From assembly GCA_026126025.1 (NCBI GenBank), contig JAHCJZ010000002.1, positions 310,001 to 374,000 of the forward strand: a stretch of DNA of 64,000 bases. The letters are read 5' to 3'. The translations under genes and the position numbers were made by a program. The DNA comes from Bauldia sp. (GTDB taxonomy: Bacteria > Pseudomonadota > Alphaproteobacteria > Rhizobiales > Kaistiaceae). Under the pieces are notes generated by a model. That model was not told the origin of the DNA. It was given only the letters and a program-made list of their open reading frames with translations, and searched no databases. Shown one piece after another: positions 2,791-21,784 of this stretch (position 1 is the stretch's first letter; every line of letters starts with the position of its first letter).

Positions 2791-3762
2791 ATGGCCGGCA
2801 CCAGCCGGACGGAAATCGAGATCGGGCTCAACGCGGCGATCGTGTCGGTCGAAGCCGACGCGCCGCAGATCCTGGTGGTTCTCGGCGGTGAAGGCGAGCC
2901 CGACGGTCTGCCCTTCGGGCCGTTCGACCCGATCCGCCATCGTACCTTCGACATCGGCCTTCGAAGCTGGGTGGAGGATCAGACCGCCCTCAAGCTCGGC
3001 CATGTCGAGCAGCTCTACACCTTCGGCGACCGCGGCCGCCACGCGCTCCCCGGCGATGTCGGCCATGTCGTCTCGGTCGGCTATCTCGCGCTGACGCGGC
3101 AGGATCCGGAATCGGCGGCGACGCTGGTCCGGGCGGGCGCCCGGTGGCGACCCTGGTACGATTTCTTTCCCTGGGAAGACTGGCGGGCGGAGCGTCCGGA
3201 CGAGCTCGACGCCACCATCCTTCCTGCGCTGGAGGCCTGGGCCGTGGCGGACCCGACGGCCGCCCCGCCCGGCCGCGCCCTCGGCCGGATGGACCGCTTC
3301 CGCCTCGCCTTCGGCCTCGACGCCGGGTGGGACGAGGAGCGCGTCCTCGACCGCTACGAGCTTCTCTACGAGGCAGGGCTGGTGGACGAAGCGGTCCGCG
3401 ACGGCCGCGCGACCGCGCGCGCCGCCCCCGCGCTCGGCGCCACGCTGCGGTTCGATCACCGCCGCATCCTGGCGACCGCGATCTCCCGGCTTCGCTCCAA
3501 GCTCAAATACCGGCCGGTCGTCTTCGAGCTGATGGCGCCGACCTTCACGCTCACCGAGCTCCAGCGCACGGTGGAGGCGATCGCCGGGCGCCACCTTCAC
3601 AAGCAGAATTTCCGCCGGCTGGTCGAGGCGACCGAGCTGGTGGAGCCGACCGGCGGCACCAGCACGCGGACCGGCGGCCGTCCGGCCGCGCTCTTCCGGT
3701 TTCGCCGCGAGGTTCTCCTAGAGCGGCCGGGCGCCGGGCTTCGCTTCGGCCAGCGCGGCTGA
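2791..3762 (+). CDS. nadQ: NadQ/NrtR-like transcriptional regulator of NAD synthesis (Nudix-related + winged helix)
   Basis: A 323-residue protein with a Nudix-fold N-terminal part (about 1-160) and a C-terminal winged-helix part (about 225-323), including the segment HLHKQNFRRL at 268-277 that is typical of NrtR-type regulators. The Nudix box is degenerate: where REUxEE is expected the protein reads RSWVED (58-63), so it is probably a ligand sensor without hydrolase activity. Regulators of this architecture (COG4111, NadQ) control nadABC in Hyphomicrobiales. Consistent with that, nadABC lies 4 kb away and carries a palindrome over its promoter. The family assignment is from memory of NadQ/NrtR; the function is inferred. 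Confidence 0.75.
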   Translation: MAGTSRTEIEIGLNAAIVSVEADAPQILVVLGGEGEPDGLPFGPFDPIRHRTFDIGLRSWVEDQTALKLGHVEQLYTFGDRGRHALPGDVGHVVSVGYLALTRQDPESAATLVRAGARWRPWYDFFPWEDWRAERPDELDATILPALEAWAVADPTAAPPGRALGRMDRFRLAFGLDAGWDEERVLDRYELLYEAGLVDEAVRDGRATARAAPALGATLRFDHRRILATAISRLRSKLKYRPVVFELMAPTFTLTELQRTVEAIAGRHLHKQNFRRLVEATELVEPTGGTSTRTGGRPAALFRFRREVLLERPGAGLRFGQRG

Positions 3763-3835
3763 CGCAAGCTGTTGCGGTTTGCCGCCCGGGACCGCTAGGT
3801 ACCGCCACGCGCCGCGACCGGCGCGCGGAATCGCC

Positions 3836-6517
<2,682 letters not shown>

Positions 6518-6558
6518 AATGCCTGCCGAATCCACGGCTTCCGCCATCGCCGCGCCGC

Positions 6559-14893: not shown

Positions 14894-15013
14894 GGGCGGA
14901 TCAGCTGCGCGGGAAGGAGCGCCTGTGACTAGTCGGTTCCCGCAAGGCTGTCACTCCAGAGATGAGGCGGCGCAACTCCACTCGCCCTTGGCCGATTGCC
15001 AGATGTTCATGTC

Positions 15014-15042
15014 TTGTTCCCGCGCCCGAGACACGCTATCGT
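15014..15042 (+). promoter_or_regulatory. possible promoter of the exported-protein block
   Basis: TTGTTC (15014-15019) and TATCGT (15037-15042) are separated by 17 bases, about 80 bases before the ATG at 15121. Both boxes are partial matches to the sigma70 consensus. A GGGGGAAG ribosome site precedes the ATG. Confidence 0.3.
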
Positions 15043-15120
15043 CCCCCGGTCGACTGCTGTCGAAGCGGGTCGGCCCCGGTTCTTGAAACGACTGTGCCAC
15101 CTGCGCTGAGGGGGAAGACG

Positions 15121-17433
15121 ATGCGTGGGCTCACGCGCGTCCTGGTGGTGATGTGTGTGCTCGTGGCGACGACGCTGGTAGCTCCGGCGTCGGCTCAGGA
15201 TGTGGTCCCCTACATTGACAACCGATCCACGCCCGAGACGCTGCTCGCCTCGCTGGCGAGCGCATTCTCCCGACGTGAAGGCGCGCGCGTACAGCACTAT
15301 TTCGATCGAGCAGAGGCAGGTGGTTTCACGGCCGGAACGAATTGGGGCGGCTTCACGAGGAATGTGTCGATTCTCACGGGCCCGACGAGCCGCATCGTCG
15401 GCGATGAGGGCGACACAATCTACTATGTGCCTGCTGTCGTCATCCTGACCAGCTGGCGCGACGACCAAGTCCGCGTCGAAACCGGCTGCTACGTCATGCG
15501 CCGGCCGCCGATCGATTCGCGATGGTTTCGACCCCTTGCCATAGTTTCTTACACGCTCACCCCCGCGGGCGAAGATGTGCGCATGCCGTCCGACTGCGGC
15601 AGCAATCCGGCGCGACAGCCAGAAGCCGATGTGCCGCTCGACGATCGGTCGACACCCGAGGCCCTGATCCTCTCTTTCCACGATGCGCTCGCGCGAGGCG
15701 AGTTTGCGCGTGCCCGAAACTACGCGTTGGGACAGACGCCCACCGCTCTCATCGCGCACGCCGACCTTCTGGCGCAAGCCGCAAGCGTCGTCGTCGGGGC
15801 CGGAAATGCTGAGCCGGAGGAAGGCGGCGTTGCCATGGTCCCGATGATCCTGATGGAACGGGACGGCGAGGCCGCAACCATCGGCTGCTATGCAATCCGC
15901 GCCGCCCGCACCGAGACTTTCGGCTTCGAGTCGATGAAGATCGTCGGCGTCCACTTCACCGGGAGCGAAGCTTTAGCCTGCCGCGACCCAGCCGAAATCG
16001 ATGTCGCTCCATCGGAGCCCGAGGGCCCGAACGATGAGCCCCGGGTGGTGATGAGGGTCGAAGAACGGCCCTATCGCGACGACCGGTCAAACCCTGAGGT
16101 GCTCATCCAATCCTACTACAACGCGCTCAATCGCCGCGAATATGCCCGCGCCGCCGGTTATTGGGCGGCAGGCGCCGGGATCAGCGCGGAAGCGTTGGCG
16201 GAAGAGCACGCGTTCTTCGTCAATCTTGGTGTGTTTCCCAGTCCTGCAACCTACGATCCGTCAGGCAACATCACGACCTTTCACGTCTATGTCCTTGTGC
16301 AGCTCACGTATGAGGACGGCGACACTCACGCCGTAGCGCGCTGCTATTCCATGAGGCTGATCGAAGAAGACGGCGGCGGGCCTCGGAAGCTGACGATCGT
16401 CGAAGCTTCGCAACCCAACCACGCCGATGCTTGCGGCGCTGGTGAGAACCGCCTTGAGATCGGTACGCGCCGCGACGACCGCTCGGATGCGGCATCGCTG
16501 GTGCGTTCGCTCTACGACGCGCTCTACCGCGCAGATTATGCCCGCGCCTGGTCCTACTTCGCAGTCCCGCCAGAGGCGAGCTTCGAGGACTATGTCGCGG
16601 GATTTGCCGACACGGGCGAGATCATGGCGGTGGTCGGGAACGACTTGCGCATAGTGATCGTCGACGGGGAGTCCGCGGTGTCGGTTCCGATAGAGATCAC
16701 TGCGATGATCCGCGACGGAGCCCCGATCTCCTACAGCGGCTGCTACTTCGTCGGGCCGCCTCATGACGCCGCGGAAGGTCCGTTCGAGCCCGCTGCAATC
16801 GTCGGCTGGGACATCGGGGAAGGCAGCGGCAGTGCAGCCCTCCAGCGCTGCGCGGATGGCGTGCGTCCCGGCGCCCCGCCCATCGTCGAACCCGATCCCG
16901 CCACCGCCGCCTTCGGCCTCGCCTATGCCGGCATCTGCATGGAGCCCTACGAGCACAATCCGTACCCAGAGGAACCCGCGATCTACGAGATACCCGGCCC
17001 GGCGGATGAACCGAAGGCGACCTGGCAGCTCTACGTCTTCTTCTGCAGCCCGGGCATGTACAGCTCCAGCTATGCGTTCTTTGCCCACCGGGCGGACGGC
17101 AGCGTCGAGCAGCTCACATTCGCGATCCCAGCGGTTGACTTCGACATCAAGGGGGACCCGGAGTTCGTGGAGTCCGCGACGTTCCGGGGCTTCCACGTCG
17201 AATATGATCCCGTCGACCGTTCCTTCGACCCGACCGTGCTGTTCGATCCGGTATCGATGACGGTCTTCGTGCACCATCCATGGCGGGCTGGGCCGAGCGA
17301 CGCGTTCACCGAGGGACGATGGATGCTGCTCGATGGTCGCTTCGTTCTGGTCGATTACGACATCGATCCGACCTTCGACTTCGACCAGAACCCGATCCCG
17401 ATCGTGCGAGATGGTCAGGTGGTACTGCAATGA
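15121..17433 (+). CDS. exported protein with four tandem DDRS/GCY modules and a C-terminal tail domain
   Basis: A 770-residue protein with a signal peptide (residues 1-26, ending APASAQ). It has four repeats of a roughly 125-residue module (about 31-159, 173-287, 318-438, 451-577). Each starts with D-(D/N)-R-S, then S-x-Y/F-x-A-L-x-R-x-E-Y-A-R-A, and ends with a (G/R)CY motif and a second cysteine 30-36 residues on (C123/C159, C256/C287, C408/C438, C541/C577), probably disulfides. The tail (about 590-770) has two cysteines (C606, C642) and ends with EGRWMLLDGRFVLVDYDIDP, faintly like DUF1176. The helical first half of the module could be NTF2-like. The next gene overlaps by ATGA. Function unknown. 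Confidence 0.8.
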   Translation: MRGLTRVLVVMCVLVATTLVAPASAQDVVPYIDNRSTPETLLASLASAFSRREGARVQHYFDRAEAGGFTAGTNWGGFTRNVSILTGPTSRIVGDEGDTIYYVPAVVILTSWRDDQVRVETGCYVMRRPPIDSRWFRPLAIVSYTLTPAGEDVRMPSDCGSNPARQPEADVPLDDRSTPEALILSFHDALARGEFARARNYALGQTPTALIAHADLLAQAASVVVGAGNAEPEEGGVAMVPMILMERDGEAATIGCYAIRAARTETFGFESMKIVGVHFTGSEALACRDPAEIDVAPSEPEGPNDEPRVVMRVEERPYRDDRSNPEVLIQSYYNALNRREYARAAGYWAAGAGISAEALAEEHAFFVNLGVFPSPATYDPSGNITTFHVYVLVQLTYEDGDTHAVARCYSMRLIEEDGGGPRKLTIVEASQPNHADACGAGENRLEIGTRRDDRSDAASLVRSLYDALYRADYARAWSYFAVPPEASFEDYVAGFADTGEIMAVVGNDLRIVIVDGESAVSVPIEITAMIRDGAPISYSGCYFVGPPHDAAEGPFEPAAIVGWDIGEGSGSAALQRCADGVRPGAPPIVEPDPATAAFGLAYAGICMEPYEHNPYPEEPAIYEIPGPADEPKATWQLYVFFCSPGMYSSSYAFFAHRADGSVEQLTFAIPAVDFDIKGDPEFVESATFRGFHVEYDPVDRSFDPTVLFDPVSMTVFVHHPWRAGPSDAFTEGRWMLLDGRFVLVDYDIDPTFDFDQNPIPIVRDGQVVLQ

Positions 17434-18917
17434 GCGTTGTGCGGCGACACGTTGCGATGCTCGCCGTCGCCCTGCTTGCGCTCGTCACGCCGGCGGCATC
17501 GCAGGACGCCGAACTGCCGCGGCGTGAGCGACCCTATGTCGACGACCGATCGACCGCGGTCCGCGTCGTCGCCTCCTACTACAGCGCCATCAGCCGCGGC
17601 GAGTATGCGCGGGCCTGGAGCTACCTGGCGGAGGGAGTCGCGGAGAGCTTCGAGACGCTCGTCGCCAACAACGAGCAGTTCCTGGGAAGGCCGCCTAGCC
17701 TCTATTGGCCAGCGATCGAAACGACGGTCAATGGAGGGCCTGGCTACGAACTGGTGATGTCCATCAACATACCTGGGCCCAACGGCAGCTTCCCGGCTTT
17801 TTACCGATGCTACCAGATCGCCGGGGCATCGGGCCTGGAGGAAGGCACCTTCATTCCGCTGACGATCACGAGAGAGGCGCCGGCGCAACGTCCCTCCGAC
17901 ACGTCCGCCGATTGTGGCAGCAATATCTATCGATGGGACGCTGAACTTTCGCCAAGTCCCTATCTCGACGACCGATCGTCGCCGGGCGCCGTGGTCCGAT
18001 CGCTCTACAATGCGATCGACCGCGGCGAATATGCGCGCGCCTGGTCCTACTTTGCAGTGCCGCCCGAGACCTCGTTCGAAGCCTATGTCGCGGGCTTCGC
18101 GGATACCGGTTCTGTGAGCGTTTCCGTGGGCGGTGCAATCCGCATGCCGACCGACGCCGGGCTTCGCCATGGCGTACCGGCATTGGTAACGGCAACTGCG
18201 CGCGACGGGACGGAGTCGACGTTCAGCGGCTGCTACTTCGTTCGGGACGCCAACCCCGGCTCCGAACCCGGTTCGTTCGTCCCGTTCGCCATCGTTGCCG
18301 GAGAGCTTGCACCCGGAGCAATGTCGGACCTCGTCGATGGGTGCAGCGCGTACCGTCCCTCGCCGGCGGCGGAGGGCGAGGAGGGGTTCCCGCCCGGAGT
18401 TGCGGAGGCATCCGCCCGTTTCGCAGCCGAATTCGGCGATTCATGTCTCGACACTGGCGGGACGCTGCCGAGCGTCTATCCGGTACAGCTTCTGCCGGGA
18501 CTGCGCGAACCTGAATACGGCGAAACAACGGAGTACTTCTATTTCTTCACCTGCAGGAAGCCCGACGCGTTTGCGACCACCGTCGTCTATGCCAGTAGCA
18601 GAGGCTTCAGGGGGGTGCACATCCACCAGATCGGGTTCGCCGAACCGGTCGTGACGATCGATGTCGAGCGTGACGGACGGGTGTCGTTCGTTGGCGTTAC
18701 GGTGCGCAATGAACTCGCGGGCGCGGTGTTCGATGCGAGCGGGCGGACTCTCCACAGTAGCGAAGAGCGTGCGGACGGCTCAGCGATTACCACTGAATGG
18801 AGCCTCCGCGGGAACGTCTTCATGCTCACCGACTATGAAGTGTTCCTTGATGATCGCGTCGTGCCGGTGATGCAGAGCGGCCTCGTGGTGCTTCACTCAG
18901 ATGAGGGAGCGCCATGA
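17430..18917 (+). CDS. exported paralogue with two DDRS/GCY modules and a tail domain
   Basis: A 495-residue protein related to its upstream neighbour. Signal peptide 1-25 (ending PAASQ); module 1 about 37-162 (VDDRST...RAWSY, C127/C162) and module 2 about 179-305 (LDDRSS...RAWSYFAVPPETSFEAY, C268/C305); tail about 320-487 with C339 and C375. Module 2 is very close to module 4 of the upstream protein, which points to gene duplication with loss or gain of modules. The tail has lost the WRGLGDA motif kept in the other family members. The ATG overlaps the upstream stop (ATGA), so the two are translationally coupled. Function unknown. Confidence 0.8.
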   Translation: MSVVRRHVAMLAVALLALVTPAASQDAELPRRERPYVDDRSTAVRVVASYYSAISRGEYARAWSYLAEGVAESFETLVANNEQFLGRPPSLYWPAIETTVNGGPGYELVMSINIPGPNGSFPAFYRCYQIAGASGLEEGTFIPLTITREAPAQRPSDTSADCGSNIYRWDAELSPSPYLDDRSSPGAVVRSLYNAIDRGEYARAWSYFAVPPETSFEAYVAGFADTGSVSVSVGGAIRMPTDAGLRHGVPALVTATARDGTESTFSGCYFVRDANPGSEPGSFVPFAIVAGELAPGAMSDLVDGCSAYRPSPAAEGEEGFPPGVAEASARFAAEFGDSCLDTGGTLPSVYPVQLLPGLREPEYGETTEYFYFFTCRKPDAFATTVVYASSRGFRGVHIHQIGFAEPVVTIDVERDGRVSFVGVTVRNELAGAVFDASGRTLHSSEERADGSAITTEWSLRGNVFMLTDYEVFLDDRVVPVMQSGLVVLHSDEGAP

Positions 18918-18950
18918 TACGACTTCACCTTGAGGGCGCCGGCGGGCTGA

Positions 18951-18965
18951 CGCCTCCGTGAGGCG
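18951..18965 (+). terminator. possible weak terminator hairpin
   Basis: CGCCTC-CGT-GAGGCG forms a perfect 6-bp stem 34 bases after the stop of the two-module gene and is followed by a short pyrimidine/T stretch (CTTCGGTCTTT). It could end that transcript or be a mere hairpin in the 116-base gap. Confidence 0.35.
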
Positions 18966-19033
18966 CTTCGGTCTTTGGCGCGTCAGGCATTGTGGGCGTG
19001 CAACAGGGTTGCACTGGAGGCTGGAGCCATAAG

Positions 19034-19630
19034 ATGCGCCGTGCAGCTGTTGCCATTGCCGCACTGTGGGTTCCGCTATCAGGTGTGTCGGGCTCGCTTG
19101 CCCAGAGCGTCCCGGATCTGGACGCGGTCATCGCAGCGTTTCGCGATACGTTTGGCAGCGATTGCGATTCCGGCGGCATGGACAGCGATTTGTTCGAGAG
19201 GTTTCCGCCGGAGGTCTATTCGGTCGGATCGCCTGATCGGGGCGAGCGCCTCTATGTCCTGATCTGCAATCTCGCGGCCTACAACGCGACCTACGCCCTC
19301 TACCTGTCGCGCCCCGATGGGCAGATCGAGCAGCTCGAATTCGCCACTCCAGTCGTCAATTTCGGGGCCTCACCCGACGACGCTGGCGAGTCCGCGGCCT
19401 TCGTCCGCTTCGACACCGACGCCCTTCTTTTCAACGTGGTGGTGGATCCGGCCCAGATGTCGATCACTGCGCGGGTGAACTGGCGCGGGCTCGGCGACGC
19501 ATTCTCCGAAGGTCGGTGGGTGCTACGTGATGGCGAAGTGGTGCTCACTGACTACGTCATCGATCCGACCCTCGATCTTGAAGAGAATCCGATTCAGATC
19601 GTGCAGGACGAGATCGTCGTTCTGCCGTAG
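19034..19630 (+). CDS. exported protein consisting of the tail domain only
   Basis: A 198-residue protein with a signal peptide (1-24, ending SGSLAQ) followed directly by the tail domain of the neighbouring family, without any DDRS/GCY module. It keeps the two tail cysteines (C44, C78), the central QLEFATPVV segment and the C-terminal block NWRGLGDAFSEGRWVLRDG followed by LTDYVIDPTLDLEENPI. This shows that the tail folds as an independent unit. The ATG at 19034 follows GGAGG-like sequence (CTGGAGGCTGGAG) and gives a good signal peptide. Function unknown; possibly a processed or minimal form of the same activity. Confidence 0.75.
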   Translation: MRRAAVAIAALWVPLSGVSGSLAQSVPDLDAVIAAFRDTFGSDCDSGGMDSDLFERFPPEVYSVGSPDRGERLYVLICNLAAYNATYALYLSRPDGQIEQLEFATPVVNFGASPDDAGESAAFVRFDTDALLFNVVVDPAQMSITARVNWRGLGDAFSEGRWVLRDGEVVLTDYVIDPTLDLEENPIQIVQDEIVVLP

Positions 19631-19700
19631 CTACGCTGCCTTGGTCGGCCGCAATTGAGGCGCTAGGGTCGCATCGTCTTTCCGCCTGGAGTCCCCGCCG

Positions 19701-20747
19701 ATGCCAGTCCTTTCGCGTGCGGCGCTTGGCGCCGTCATTCTCGCCGCCCTCGCCGCACCGGCCTTCGCCCAGCAGCCGCCCTTCCTTGACGATCGCTCCA
19801 GCGGGCCGGCGTTGATCCGGTCGCTCTACAATGCGATCGAGCGGCAGGAATATGCGCGGGCGTGGGACTATTTCGCCGAACCGCCGGCGGCGAGCTATGA
19901 GGCCTATGTTGCCGGTTACGCCGACACGGCGTCGGTGCGGATCACGACCGGCAACGCGTCGGAGGAAGGGGCGGCGGGCAGCGTCTATTTCGAGGTGCCG
20001 GTGATCCTCGAGGCGACCGCAACCGACGGGACGGTGTCGGTCTTCGTCGGCTGCTACACGGTGCGGCAGGTCAACCCGGCGATCCAGGATCCGCCGTTCC
20101 GGCCGATGCAGATCACCGCGGGGCGGCTGAAGGCGGCGGGCGGCGATGCCGCTTTCCCGAGCAATTGCGGTGCCGGCGGCTCCGCTTCGGCCGGCGGAAA
20201 CGCCGATCGCGTGATGGCGATCTTCACGGCCTCCTATGACGACGACATCTGCATCAGCCTCAGCCGGGAATACAACCCGGAAGGCGTCACGCCGGACGTC
20301 TACGAGCTCCGCTTCAACTACGCCTCCGACGAGCCGGATTTCGGCGCGCGCGTCTTCCACCTCTACCGGGTCTGGTGCTGGCGCGGGGCCTACAATGAGG
20401 GCCACATCTACTATCTGGAGGATGACCTCGGCGACATCCGGCAGCTCGCCTTCGCGCATCCCGACGTGGAGGTCACCTACGCCGACGAGATGAACGAGGT
20501 GCTGGACGGGCTGGCGGTCGTGGGCTTCACCGCGTCGGCGGAGCTCTCGCTGTCGGACTTCGATCCCGCCACCGGCACCATCTCGGAATTCGCCAAATGG
20601 CGCGGCCTCGGCGACGCCGCCTCGAGCGGGCGCTGGGTCTTCGACCAGGGCGCCTTCCGCCTCGACTACTACCAGGTCGACCCGACCTTCAACGGCGAGA
20701 TCGATCCGATCACCATCGTCGAGGACGGACGGGTGGTGTTCGACTGA
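19701..20747 (+). CDS. exported protein with one DDRS/GCY module and a tail domain (likely family prototype)
   Basis: A 348-residue protein with signal peptide (1-23, ending APAFAQ), one module (about 28-156, LDDRSS...EYARAWDYF, C118 in VGCY and C156) and the tail (about 175-348, C184 and C226, KWRGLGDAASSGRWVFDQG). I recall single-module proteins of this layout in other Hyphomicrobiales, some labelled DUF1176, so this copy is the probable ancestor and the three upstream genes lineage-specific offshoots. By eye its codon third positions are as GC-rich as the flanking genes, while the three upstream paralogues look somewhat less so. A GGAG site precedes the ATG. Function unknown. Confidence 0.8.
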   Translation: MPVLSRAALGAVILAALAAPAFAQQPPFLDDRSSGPALIRSLYNAIERQEYARAWDYFAEPPAASYEAYVAGYADTASVRITTGNASEEGAAGSVYFEVPVILEATATDGTVSVFVGCYTVRQVNPAIQDPPFRPMQITAGRLKAAGGDAAFPSNCGAGGSASAGGNADRVMAIFTASYDDDICISLSREYNPEGVTPDVYELRFNYASDEPDFGARVFHLYRVWCWRGAYNEGHIYYLEDDLGDIRQLAFAHPDVEVTYADEMNEVLDGLAVVGFTASAELSLSDFDPATGTISEFAKWRGLGDAASSGRWVFDQGAFRLDYYQVDPTFNGEIDPITIVEDGRVVFD

Positions 20748-20764
20748 GATTGCAGGGCAGACGT

Positions 20765-20792
20765 AATTGGGATAAATAGGATGCTCCCAATT
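20765..20792 (+). promoter_or_regulatory. probable autoregulatory operator of the DUF433/DUF5615 pair
   Basis: Perfect inverted repeat AATTGGGA-N12-TCCCAATT, ending 17 bases before the antitoxin start codon. A weak promoter (TTGCAG 20750-20755, 17 bases, TAAATA 20773-20778) places the -10 box inside the repeat. Antitoxins commonly repress their own operon through such sites; here that is inferred. Confidence 0.5.
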
Positions 20793-20809
20793 GCATCAGG
20801 AGTTGCCCG

Positions 20810-21448
20810 TTGCGAAAGCTGGTCGCGGATCCGTTCGGGGCTATTGAGAACGTTCGGCGCTTCGCCGCGGAGCTGAAACGGCAGCCCGAGCTCGCCGAAC
20901 GGCTTGGTCACGCCTCAGCGTGGTACGCCTTTCGCGAGCGCAAGGGATGGGTGTTCGCACCAAGCAAATTCGTCGGCTACGAACGAAATACGTCGCGGGA
21001 GTATCTCGCCACCGCGCGAGACCATGGCGACGGGCGGAAGACGGAAGCCGCACTTGCCCGATGGTTCAAACCCGTCGACCCGGAGAGCCGGCTGGGCCGC
21101 GAACTCCACAAGGCGCTGGACGCCTTCCTGGGTCAGTGGAACCGCCGCCCGCACAAGCGAGCGCGCATCAGCGTCGTCGGCGGCGAGCGCGGCGGAGAAC
21201 GACCGACCTCCGTCCGGTCGGAAGAAGAACTCATGCGTCGCATCGCGGTCGACCCCGGCATCAATGGCGGCCGGCCGACGATCGTCGGCACGCGCGTCCG
21301 GGTCAGCGACGTGGTCGAGATGGTCGCCGGCGGCGCGGAGCGGAACACGATCCTCGCCGACTTCCCCTACCTTGCCGACGACGACATCTCGGCGGCTCTT
21401 CTCTATGCCGCAAGAGCCGCGTCCCATCGCGTCGTTCGGGCTGCGTGA
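20810..21448 (+). CDS. DUF433 antitoxin with a long N-terminal extension
   Basis: A 212-residue protein whose C-terminal part (about 143-205, RRIAVDPGINGGRPTIVGTR ... ILADFPYLADDDISAALLYA) is a DUF433 domain, the antitoxin of VapBC45-like pairs. The first 140 residues form a separate domain I do not recognise, with WVFAPSKFVGYERN and DGRKTEAALARWF as its most striking parts; plain DUF433 proteins are about 75 residues. The start is TTG at 20810, chosen because AGGAG lies 7 bases upstream. The toxin gene begins 3 bases after the stop. The pair lies at the end of the block between glyS and glyQ. Confidence 0.75.
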   Translation: MRKLVADPFGAIENVRRFAAELKRQPELAERLGHASAWYAFRERKGWVFAPSKFVGYERNTSREYLATARDHGDGRKTEAALARWFKPVDPESRLGRELHKALDAFLGQWNRRPHKRARISVVGGERGGERPTSVRSEEELMRRIAVDPGINGGRPTIVGTRVRVSDVVEMVAGGAERNTILADFPYLADDDISAALLYAARAASHRVVRAA

Positions 21449-21451
21449 CTT

Positions 21452-21784
21452 GTGCGCTTTCTCGTCGATGCGCAGCTGCCTCCTTCCTTCGCCAGCTGGC
21501 TGAACGGGCAAGGACACCAAGCAAGGCACGTCACGGAGGTCGGTCTGGGCAGCTCGGCCGACCAGGAGATTTGGGACGAAGCCAGTCGTTCCGACGCCAT
21601 CATCGTGTCGAAGGACGAAGATTTCGCCGATCTCGTCCGTCGAACCGCCAGCGGACCCGCGGTGCTGTGGGTCAGGTTAGGCAATACGACAACCGCCGCG
21701 CTGCTGGGTGCGATAGCACCGGTATTCAGCGACATCGTTGGCGCGTTCGAGCGCGGCGAAAGACTGGTGGAGTTCGCCGACTAG
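21452..21784 (+). CDS. DUF5615 (Mut7-C-like PIN) toxin
   Basis: A 110-residue protein of the PIN-like DUF5615 family, presumed ribonucleases and partners of DUF433 proteins. Visible acidic residues are D6 in FLVDAQLP and the K54-D55-x-D57 motif in [10 protein letters not shown], as in the family. The GTG start follows the antitoxin stop by 3 bases, so the two are co-translated. Its stop codon overlaps that of glyQ on the opposite strand in a shared CTAG, so nothing separates the block from the ancestral glyQ 3' end. Confidence 0.85.

Follow-up and report, generated by a model that had tools for sequence, protein, structure and literature searches.

Described systems that are comparable in part to the proteins discussed here include inhibitors of peptidoglycan hydrolases and accessory domains of peptidoglycan enzymes. 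The structure 4QTQ is that of XAC2610, an inhibitor of the GH19 peptidoglycan hydrolase XAC2609, and XAC2610, PliI and Tsi1 are described as having a common beta-propeller topology and as inserting a loop in the active site of the wall hydrolase that they inhibit (PMC10933484, PMC6536674). A homologue of XAC2610, t0732, is included in SAIDI-1, an orphan immunity islet of Salmonella Typhi (PMC7400221). The NTF2 pocket of the periplasmic protein Pgp2 binds peptidoglycan and pocket mutants do not restore cell shape (PMC8038945), and the NTF2 domain of Bd1075 sets the placement of this enzyme in the periplasm (PMC8938487). DUF1176 proteins have been assigned by homology, jointly with DUF1192 and SPOR proteins, a probable part in cell-wall maintenance, remodelling and division (PMC12343572); no function or fold of DUF1176 is shown in the passages naming it in the papers searched. 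Here we describe four adjacent plus-strand genes (P1 to P4) in a 64,000-nucleotide stretch of the genome of Bauldia sp. (the window). Their products carry up to four copies of a predicted NTF2-like module and end in a tail that corresponds to the C-terminal part of DUF1176. The explanation that we find best, tentative as it is, makes P1 to P4 periplasmic inhibitors of wall-cleaving enzymes. Of the roles suggested by the original prediction for this cluster (binding, adhesion or inhibition), inhibition is the one that we favour, and we saw no sign of adhesion or of display at the surface.

We scanned the cluster with one profile built from its seven modules and another built from its four tails. 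The architectures foreseen by the original prediction were recovered: four modules plus tail in P1, two plus tail in P2, tail only in P3 and one plus tail in P4 (Table 1). The scores of the module profile on its own modules (E 1.4e-43 to 1.3e-57) are high by construction; P4 alone as a query recovers its paralogues at E 3e-41 to 1.5e-8, i.e. above chance. The module is a real repeat, with a measured length of about 130-140 residues instead of the roughly 125 first estimated. Modules are 26-34% identical to the first row of their alignment, the closest pairs reach at most 49%, and 12 columns are invariant. DDRS precedes helix 1 and EYARAW.YF lies around helix 2, both conserved, as are GCY and a late cysteine. 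No Pfam or NCBIfam family came above its cut-off on the module in scans of P1 to P4, the sole candidate of the NTF2 clan in the Pfam scan being DUF4878 (12.4 bits, cut-off 24.1), a family that we take to be NTF2-like.

The structure of P4 was predicted with AlphaFold2 from an alignment of P4 and 52 other sequences. The model has a mean predicted local distance difference test (pLDDT) of 87.4 and a predicted template modelling score (pTM) of 0.58, the latter low, which suggests that the arrangement of the two domains is uncertain. Its module consists of helices at residues 35-47, 51-56 and 66-72 followed by five strands, i.e. helices on a curved antiparallel sheet in a cone fold. The 50 entries listed by VIA-align (Z 9.6-11.7) all fall within model residues 20-168, the best of them (Z 11.7) over 114 residues at 3.4 Å, and nearly all are NTF2- or cystatin-like by their title or known fold. 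Foldseek found similar proteins, among them Bd1075 (7o21), with a best E of merely 0.023, and a viral structure library gave one NTF2 match, the rest being mostly of low probability. On the basis of the model the module is confidently predicted to have an NTF2-like fold.

The tails are 26-38% identical to the first row of their alignment, with 21 invariant columns. DUF1176, a name that the original prediction had associated with the module, is the wrong label for it because the Pfam match (PF06674) covers the tail, at residues 221-329 of P4 (48.3 bits, E 1.4e-12, gathering cut-off 34.8). P3 stays just under the cut-off (30.7 bits, E 3.2e-7), and P1 and P2 have no DUF1176 match in the Pfam scan. 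The Pfam match spans only profile positions 211-306 of 322 (215-306 in P4); by sequence comparison the tail corresponds to the C-terminal domain of the family only and not to a full-length member. Escherichia coli YpfG, in contrast, covers the DUF1176 profile from end to end (1-322), the tail of the cluster proteins being homologous to its C-terminal third. Where the family has its N-terminal two thirds, NTF2-like modules stand in P1, P2 and P4 and are absent in P3. The part of YpfG that aligns to the tail profile is residues 278-333, with a probability of 92% (E 5.6e-7); YpfG also contains a C..GAYN stretch as in the tails, and its Pfam scan gives DUF1176 only. The N-terminal half of the ypfG product (NC_000913, L136 735-1778) has a FSDWQVTC...C pattern reminiscent of IalB-type invasion-associated proteins. 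DUF1176 proteins may accordingly consist of two domains, of which the C-terminal one is the mobile unit found in the cluster.

Over 54 tails (in P3 numbering), C78 and R151 are present in 54, A82, Y83 and D155 in 53 and N84 in 52; C44 is likewise invariant, which gives two invariant cysteines. The tails of P3 and P4 keep both the AYN and the WRGxGDAxSxG loops. In P1 the cysteine pair is kept, AYN reads MYS and G154 reads S. The P2 tail reads AFA and has Y83, N84, W150, G152, D155, G160 and G167 changed or missing, and it keeps both cysteines, R151, G154, A156 and W162. These changes in the loops of P1 and P2 fit either new targets or decay.

The link between the tail and wall-hydrolase inhibitors comes from its fold and from profile comparison. 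The structure of P3, predicted from P3 and 53 other sequences (pLDDT 84.5, pTM 0.81), has XAC2610 (4qtq) as its first-ranked Foldseek match (E 0.016, probability 0.60, TM score 0.20). The same entry ranks first when VIA-align is applied to Foldseek's candidates (Z 6.5, 142 residues, 4.0 Å, 13% identity). A PliI-lysozyme complex (4pj2_B) follows at rank 27 (Z 4.7, 103 residues, 18% identity), with many beta-propellers lower down; Tsi1 is absent among the VIA-align matches listed, an absence that carries no weight. For the profile comparison, 11 members of the XAC2610 family were collected with NF047539 among 299 genomes of the phylum, trimmed around the match and aligned. The tail scores 30.9 against them in local hhalign (probability 29%, E 6e-4). 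As controls, 100 column shuffles average 11.5 and never exceed 17.7, while the alignment of the modules gives 9.9 and the profile read in reverse 14.7. With a wider set of tails, 67 rows that include YpfG and the congeners, the score is 32.0, and the untrimmed XAC2610 alignment gives 31.3, so that the score is not a product of trimming. The sole controls against generic beta-hairpin repeats are 25 alignments derived from frames beside the gene in relatives, several of them antisense frames of real genes, and these reach at most 19.6 with the same query and 20.2 with the broad one. PliI and XAC2610 themselves, the topology of which is published as common, score merely 17.4 against each other. 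Against sequences of the PDB, the tail profile gave six gyrase matches and P4 alone two matches, all at chance level. To us these comparisons of sequence profiles give moderate support to a possible remote relationship between the tail and the XAC2610 family, all of it from a single stretch of about 50 columns. The tail thus points to inhibitors of wall hydrolases weakly by its fold and weakly by its profile, and further through the behaviour of ypfG described below.

Were P1 to P4 such inhibitors, the tail would belong, as a distant member, with XAC2610 and PliI among the beta-propeller-like inhibitors and would act on a peptidoglycan hydrolase by inserting an exposed loop in its active site. 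The candidate contact loops are the AYN hairpin after the second cysteine, which by eye appears to be the counterpart of the inhibitory loop of XAC2610, or the WRGxGDAxSxG loop. The modules would grip the wall by taking peptidoglycan into their pocket, and serial modules would raise avidity. We propose this tether because the NTF2 domain of Pgp2 binds peptidoglycan and, given a role in hydrolase inhibition, it could equally well be right or wrong. The NTF2 domains of Pgp2, Csd6 and Bd1075 have the same fold class, compartment and accessory role as the modules, but they are fused to an LD-carboxypeptidase and those of the cluster to a putative inhibitor, in up to four repeats; Pgp2 and Csd6 are absent among the Foldseek and VIA-align matches listed for the module. 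The target of P4 would be a widespread hydrolase, either the cell's own or a foreign one, and P1 to P3 would be local variants with altered loops and targets. The most elaborate form of this proposal is a locally evolved array of tandem peptidoglycan-binding NTF2 cups and DUF1176-type inhibitor, whose paralogues have been re-targeted to different own or foreign hydrolases. We consider it unlikely in its entirety, although, were it true, the PliI/XAC2610 inhibitors would gain a new branch in DUF1176, E. coli YpfG among its members. DUF1176 is uncharacterised and reaches E. coli (ypfG) and Brucella, and the inhibitor hypothesis makes the family testable, the array being a natural experiment on the effect of repeat number and loop changes on wall binding and inhibitor specificity.

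The expression of ypfG fits a wall-protecting role. With two doses of a LolCDE inhibitor the RNA of E. coli ypfG rose 38- and 44-fold, that of mliC 24- and 37-fold and that of ivy 23- and 37-fold, the last two genes coding for lysozyme inhibitors; the same table also has colanic-acid genes, and its authors mention a possible beta-barrel for YpfG and the raising of ivy by Rcs (PMC5105897). In a multi-stress study ypfG is found among the hub genes and in the signal-peptide group (PMC9501238). We have also counted in favour of inhibition that module and tail are fused in some genomes and separate genes in three others (G177, G261 and G400), more than 1 Mb apart in G177 and G400 and on different contigs in G261.

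A number of observations weigh against P1 to P4 being inhibitors. The Z score of the 4qtq match is below the 7-8 that, according to the tool's own note, is typical of models without a clear match, and its TM score and E value are those given above. The profile signal covers about 50 columns in one C-terminal hairpin region, outside the AYN loop, at a probability of 29-34%. In global mode hhalign scores tail and XAC2610 family at 16.2 (probability 3.5%), a figure for which the null is too erratic to give a yardstick (60 shuffles, mean 4.0, maximum 127). The tail shows no profile signal with PliI (three sequences, 11.4), the XAC2610 and PliI models (NF047539, PF16743) were not matched in NCBIfam and Pfam scans of P1 to P4, and the D-x-N-x-D-G calcium loop of XAC2610 is absent from the tails by eye. 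The induction of ypfG belongs to a wide response to envelope stress in which genes of many functions take part, and YpfG differs from the cluster proteins in its N-terminal half. NTF2-like domains bind many ligands and also serve as enzymes. Among the cluster neighbours scanned there is no hydrolase save an S49 peptidase. The sheath protein of the type VI secretion system is absent from the Bauldia genome and two congeners, which makes protection from an own system of this type unlikely; what remains is protection against others or the control of hydrolases of its own. The points of contact with XAC2610 (X-Tfi) and PliI are the best, though weak, fold match of the tail and the local profile signal with the XAC2610 family; the cluster differs from them in its added NTF2 modules as well as in the missing family-model match, calcium-loop motif and neighbouring wall hydrolase. 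Like SAIDI-1, it places several exported proteins in a chromosomal gap that is not conserved; unlike SAIDI-1, it consists of paralogues of one family.

Table 1. Positions in the window of the four genes and of the domains predicted in their products.
Feature	Position	Strand	Description	Basis
P1	15121-17433	+	770 aa predicted exported protein, 4 NTF2-like modules + DUF1176-type tail	ORF (open reading frame), translation, domain scan
P1 module 1 (NTF2-like)	15202-15621	+		profile match E 4.4e-53
P1 module 2	15625-16017	+		profile match E 1.4e-43
P1 module 3	16060-16452	+		profile match E 8.4e-50
P1 module 4	16465-16860	+		profile match E 3.5e-52
P1 tail	16894-17409	+		profile match E 5.9e-44
P2	17430-18917	+	495 aa predicted exported protein, 2 modules + tail	ORF, domain scan
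P2 module 1	17526-17933	+		profile match E 1.2e-51
P2 module 2	17952-18353	+		profile match E 1.7e-57
P2 tail	18396-18866	+	most diverged tail	profile match E 6.6e-28
P3	19034-19630	+	198 aa predicted exported protein, tail only	ORF, domain scan, predicted structure
P3 tail domain	19103-19606	+		profile match E 9.5e-45
P4	19701-20747	+	348 aa predicted exported protein, 1 module + tail	ORF, domain scan, predicted structure
P4 module	19773-20180	+	NTF2-like fold (predicted)	profile match E 1.3e-57, fold matches
P4 tail	20199-20723	+	DUF1176 C-terminal part	profile match E 8.7e-61

That the four genes code for adjacent, paralogous exported proteins was borne out by their complete ORFs, open over 198-770 codons, by the profile matches and by signal-like N termini. 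The starts were picked to give an N-terminal signal-like segment, longer frames existing for P1, P2 and P3. With these starts all four proteins begin with a basic n-region followed by a hydrophobic 12-mer (mean Kyte-Doolittle value 2.25-3.07), and an A-x-A-like site ahead of a glutamine can be seen by eye (AAS in P2). Past the N terminus hydropathy gave no stretch of membrane length (top 19-mer 1.56), and no lipobox was seen by eye. Judged from hydropathy and charge composition, the N termini fit signal peptides and the proteins are probably exported. The ATG of P2 overlaps the TGA of P1 (ATGA), which makes translational coupling of P1 and P2 probable; P3 begins after a gap of 116 bases and P4 after one of 70. 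Promoter-like sites numbered 0 (1.2 expected) and terminator-like sites 3 (3.8 expected).

The alternative that survives best, although it is somewhat unlikely, is that the proteins bind ligands or scavenge metabolites in the periplasm, the NTF2 cups holding a small hydrophobic or charged molecule, the tail being structural or used for docking, and the additional copies adding capacity. The fold matches listed for the module do include ketosteroid-isomerase-like proteins and designed binders of vitamin D and cortisol. Modules also occur without a strong tail (E < 1e-40) in 13 of the 32 module-bearing genomes described below, 3 of these 13 having only weak partial module matches. Ligand binding leaves unexplained, however, both the inhibitor-like matches of the tail and the co-induction of ypfG with lysozyme inhibitors.

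The next alternative concerns the origin of the copies and depends on the site in which they are found. The cluster sits between glyS and glyQ, in a gap of 6.9 kb (14894-21780) that measures about 4.7 kb in the congener G001 and 2.6 kb in G002 (L132, L133), in both of which it contains neither domain. This gap is a variable site in the genus, and the cluster is present in one of the three genomes compared. Directly 3' of the cluster there is a plus-strand gene pair for a DUF433 protein and a DUF5615 (PIN-like) protein (20810-21784), the second of which overlaps the glyQ stop; we take this pair to be of the toxin-antitoxin type. In G001, a 33-residue match to the DUF433 protein (64%) was found beside glyS (L132 6388-6768), so that the gap may collect pairs of this type.

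The GC content at third codon positions (GC3) is 0.74-0.76 in P1 to P3 and 0.88 in P4. It is 0.78 and 0.74 in the DUF433 and DUF5615 genes, whereas the four genes on either side (glyS, glyQ and those for an S49 peptidase and a methyltransferase) have 0.87-0.94; among five further ORFs of the window, four have 0.86-0.92 and one, a putative frame at 3551-6547, has 0.72. In the tail tree P1, P2 and P3 come together (96/90) on long branches, P4 stands among ordinary fused proteins, and the tail genes of the congeners form a separate long branch (100/100). The end branches of the module tree measure 0.49 substitutions per site for P4 and 1.9-3.7 for P1 modules 1-3 and P2 module 1. On the best tree two changes are required for the seven modules and on 60% of the bootstrap trees a single one, at a point where long branches meet. 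P4 looks like a conserved gene and P1 to P3 like diverged long-branch copies. P1 module 4 and P2 module 2 agree at 76% of 144 nucleotides, with 49% amino-acid identity and a ratio of nonsynonymous to synonymous divergence (dN/dS) of 0.43. Over all comparisons dN/dS is 0.28-0.70 in nine of ten pairs, the tenth being unusable (dS saturated), and dS exceeds 1 in all ten. The selection for variety that the original prediction had seen in the expansion is not supported by these values, because of which fast divergence may equally reflect relaxed constraint.

It could be, then, that only P4 is usefully selected and that P1 to P3 are weakly constrained duplicates, or foreign genes, in a permissive gap. 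The GC3 of P1 to P3, similar to that of the DUF433/DUF5615 pair and apart from that of P4 and the flanks, speaks for this, as do terminal branches of up to 3.7 substitutions per site, the motif residues gone from the P2 tail and the lack of both domains in the gap of the two congeners. Nevertheless, the long frames have stayed open and the signal-like starts have been kept, the invariant residues of the modules and the cysteines of the tails are retained and pairwise dN/dS is below 1, and we regard this explanation as decidedly unlikely. Other candidates were tried and rejected. For a phage origin, P1 had no match in 50,697 phage records (E 0.01) and none of seven pattern matches in viral contigs was confirmed; for an anti-phage identity, there was no PADLOC match. 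Against a plasmid-borne cluster, P4 has matches in 17 plasmid records but no match extends over more than 80% of it; of the 15 listed, 14 cover the module part only (31-58% identity) and the remaining one covers the tail.

Roles as adhesins at the surface or as exported proteins with antigenic variation, close to what was first proposed, are very improbable: module number does vary between the paralogues and a Brucella DUF1176 protein (WP_002964611.1, 351 aa), a putative relative of P4, appears in a candidate-antigen table and in a brucellin extract (PMC6304850, PMC12343572), but the cluster proteins have no membrane anchor, no lipobox by eye and no adhesin domain match, and the relatives with a single copy show good conservation, with 28 invariant columns in 53 rows, in contrast to surface antigens that vary.

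The expansion is indeed local, as the original prediction had proposed. The Bauldia genome has all of its seven modules and four tails inside the cluster. Among 397 genomes sampled from the order the module is found in 32 (E <= 0.01), the other 31 with one each, and among 385 genomes of the class in two, the Bauldia genome itself and one single-copy genome; no other genome in the two samples has a multi-module expansion. Tails (E <= 1e-4) are present in 83 of the 397, with four in the Bauldia genome, two in G001 and one in each of the other 81. The best tail match is below 1e-40 in 31 genomes, and 31 of the other 52 have open frames of 330-400 residues, as would full DUF1176 proteins, which are of this size. 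Nineteen genomes have both module and tail (of 32 and 31), an overlap dominated by fused genes and not counted as evidence. Within the family, P4 has a match (E <= 0.001) in 6 of 28 genomes, and outside the Bauldia genome this match is confined to the tail.

Relatives had been expected to be of the single-module form. This holds in so far as a single module plus tail is ordinary, being widespread in named genomes of Mesorhizobium, Aquibium, Nitratireductor, Aminobacter, Aquamicrobium and others; module-only and tail-only genes exist too. These Mesorhizobium-type proteins have the same domain order as P4. A comparison of the best 80 of 231 loci, ranked by likeness to P4 and hence biased to P4-like proteins, gave exactly one module and one tail in each, the top one (Aquibium) at 50% identity. 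Multi-module or clustered forms are absent among these 80, whereas the cluster has both. As far as searched, what is new is the multi-module expansion, the NTF2-like assignment of the module and the proposed link between the C-terminal domain of DUF1176 and XAC2610; the single-copy domain pair is already ordinary. The ten ORFs of the glyS-glyQ region, used as queries, were not found beside the best 80 of 231 relatives. In the Mesorhizobium locus L060 the neighbours are hydrolase-like, MobA-like, XdhC, CoxE, AAA and flavin-reductase proteins, with homologues in 11-12 of 18 further loci, the comparison having taken in 19 of the 80. We rejected them as functional partners since in L060 they sit on the opposite strand to the gene.

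The congeners have tail-only genes elsewhere in their genomes (L134 5902-6582, L135 6420-7283 and G001 C66:133555-134016), G001 with two copies; those in L134 and L135 come just under the DUF1176 cut-off (34.0 and 32.2 versus 34.8 bits). Module-only matches were seen in plasmid records of Shinella, Sinorhizobium and Paracoccus, among others. Two such genes code for hypothetical proteins of about 160 residues (L137 3941-4426, L138 3929-4405) in plasmid records labelled Roseateles (UNVERIFIED_ORG) and Paracoccus. The module of the Roseateles-labelled record is 58% identical to that of P4, as close as the Shinella plasmid copy, and because of this identity the label, or a transfer, deserves a look.

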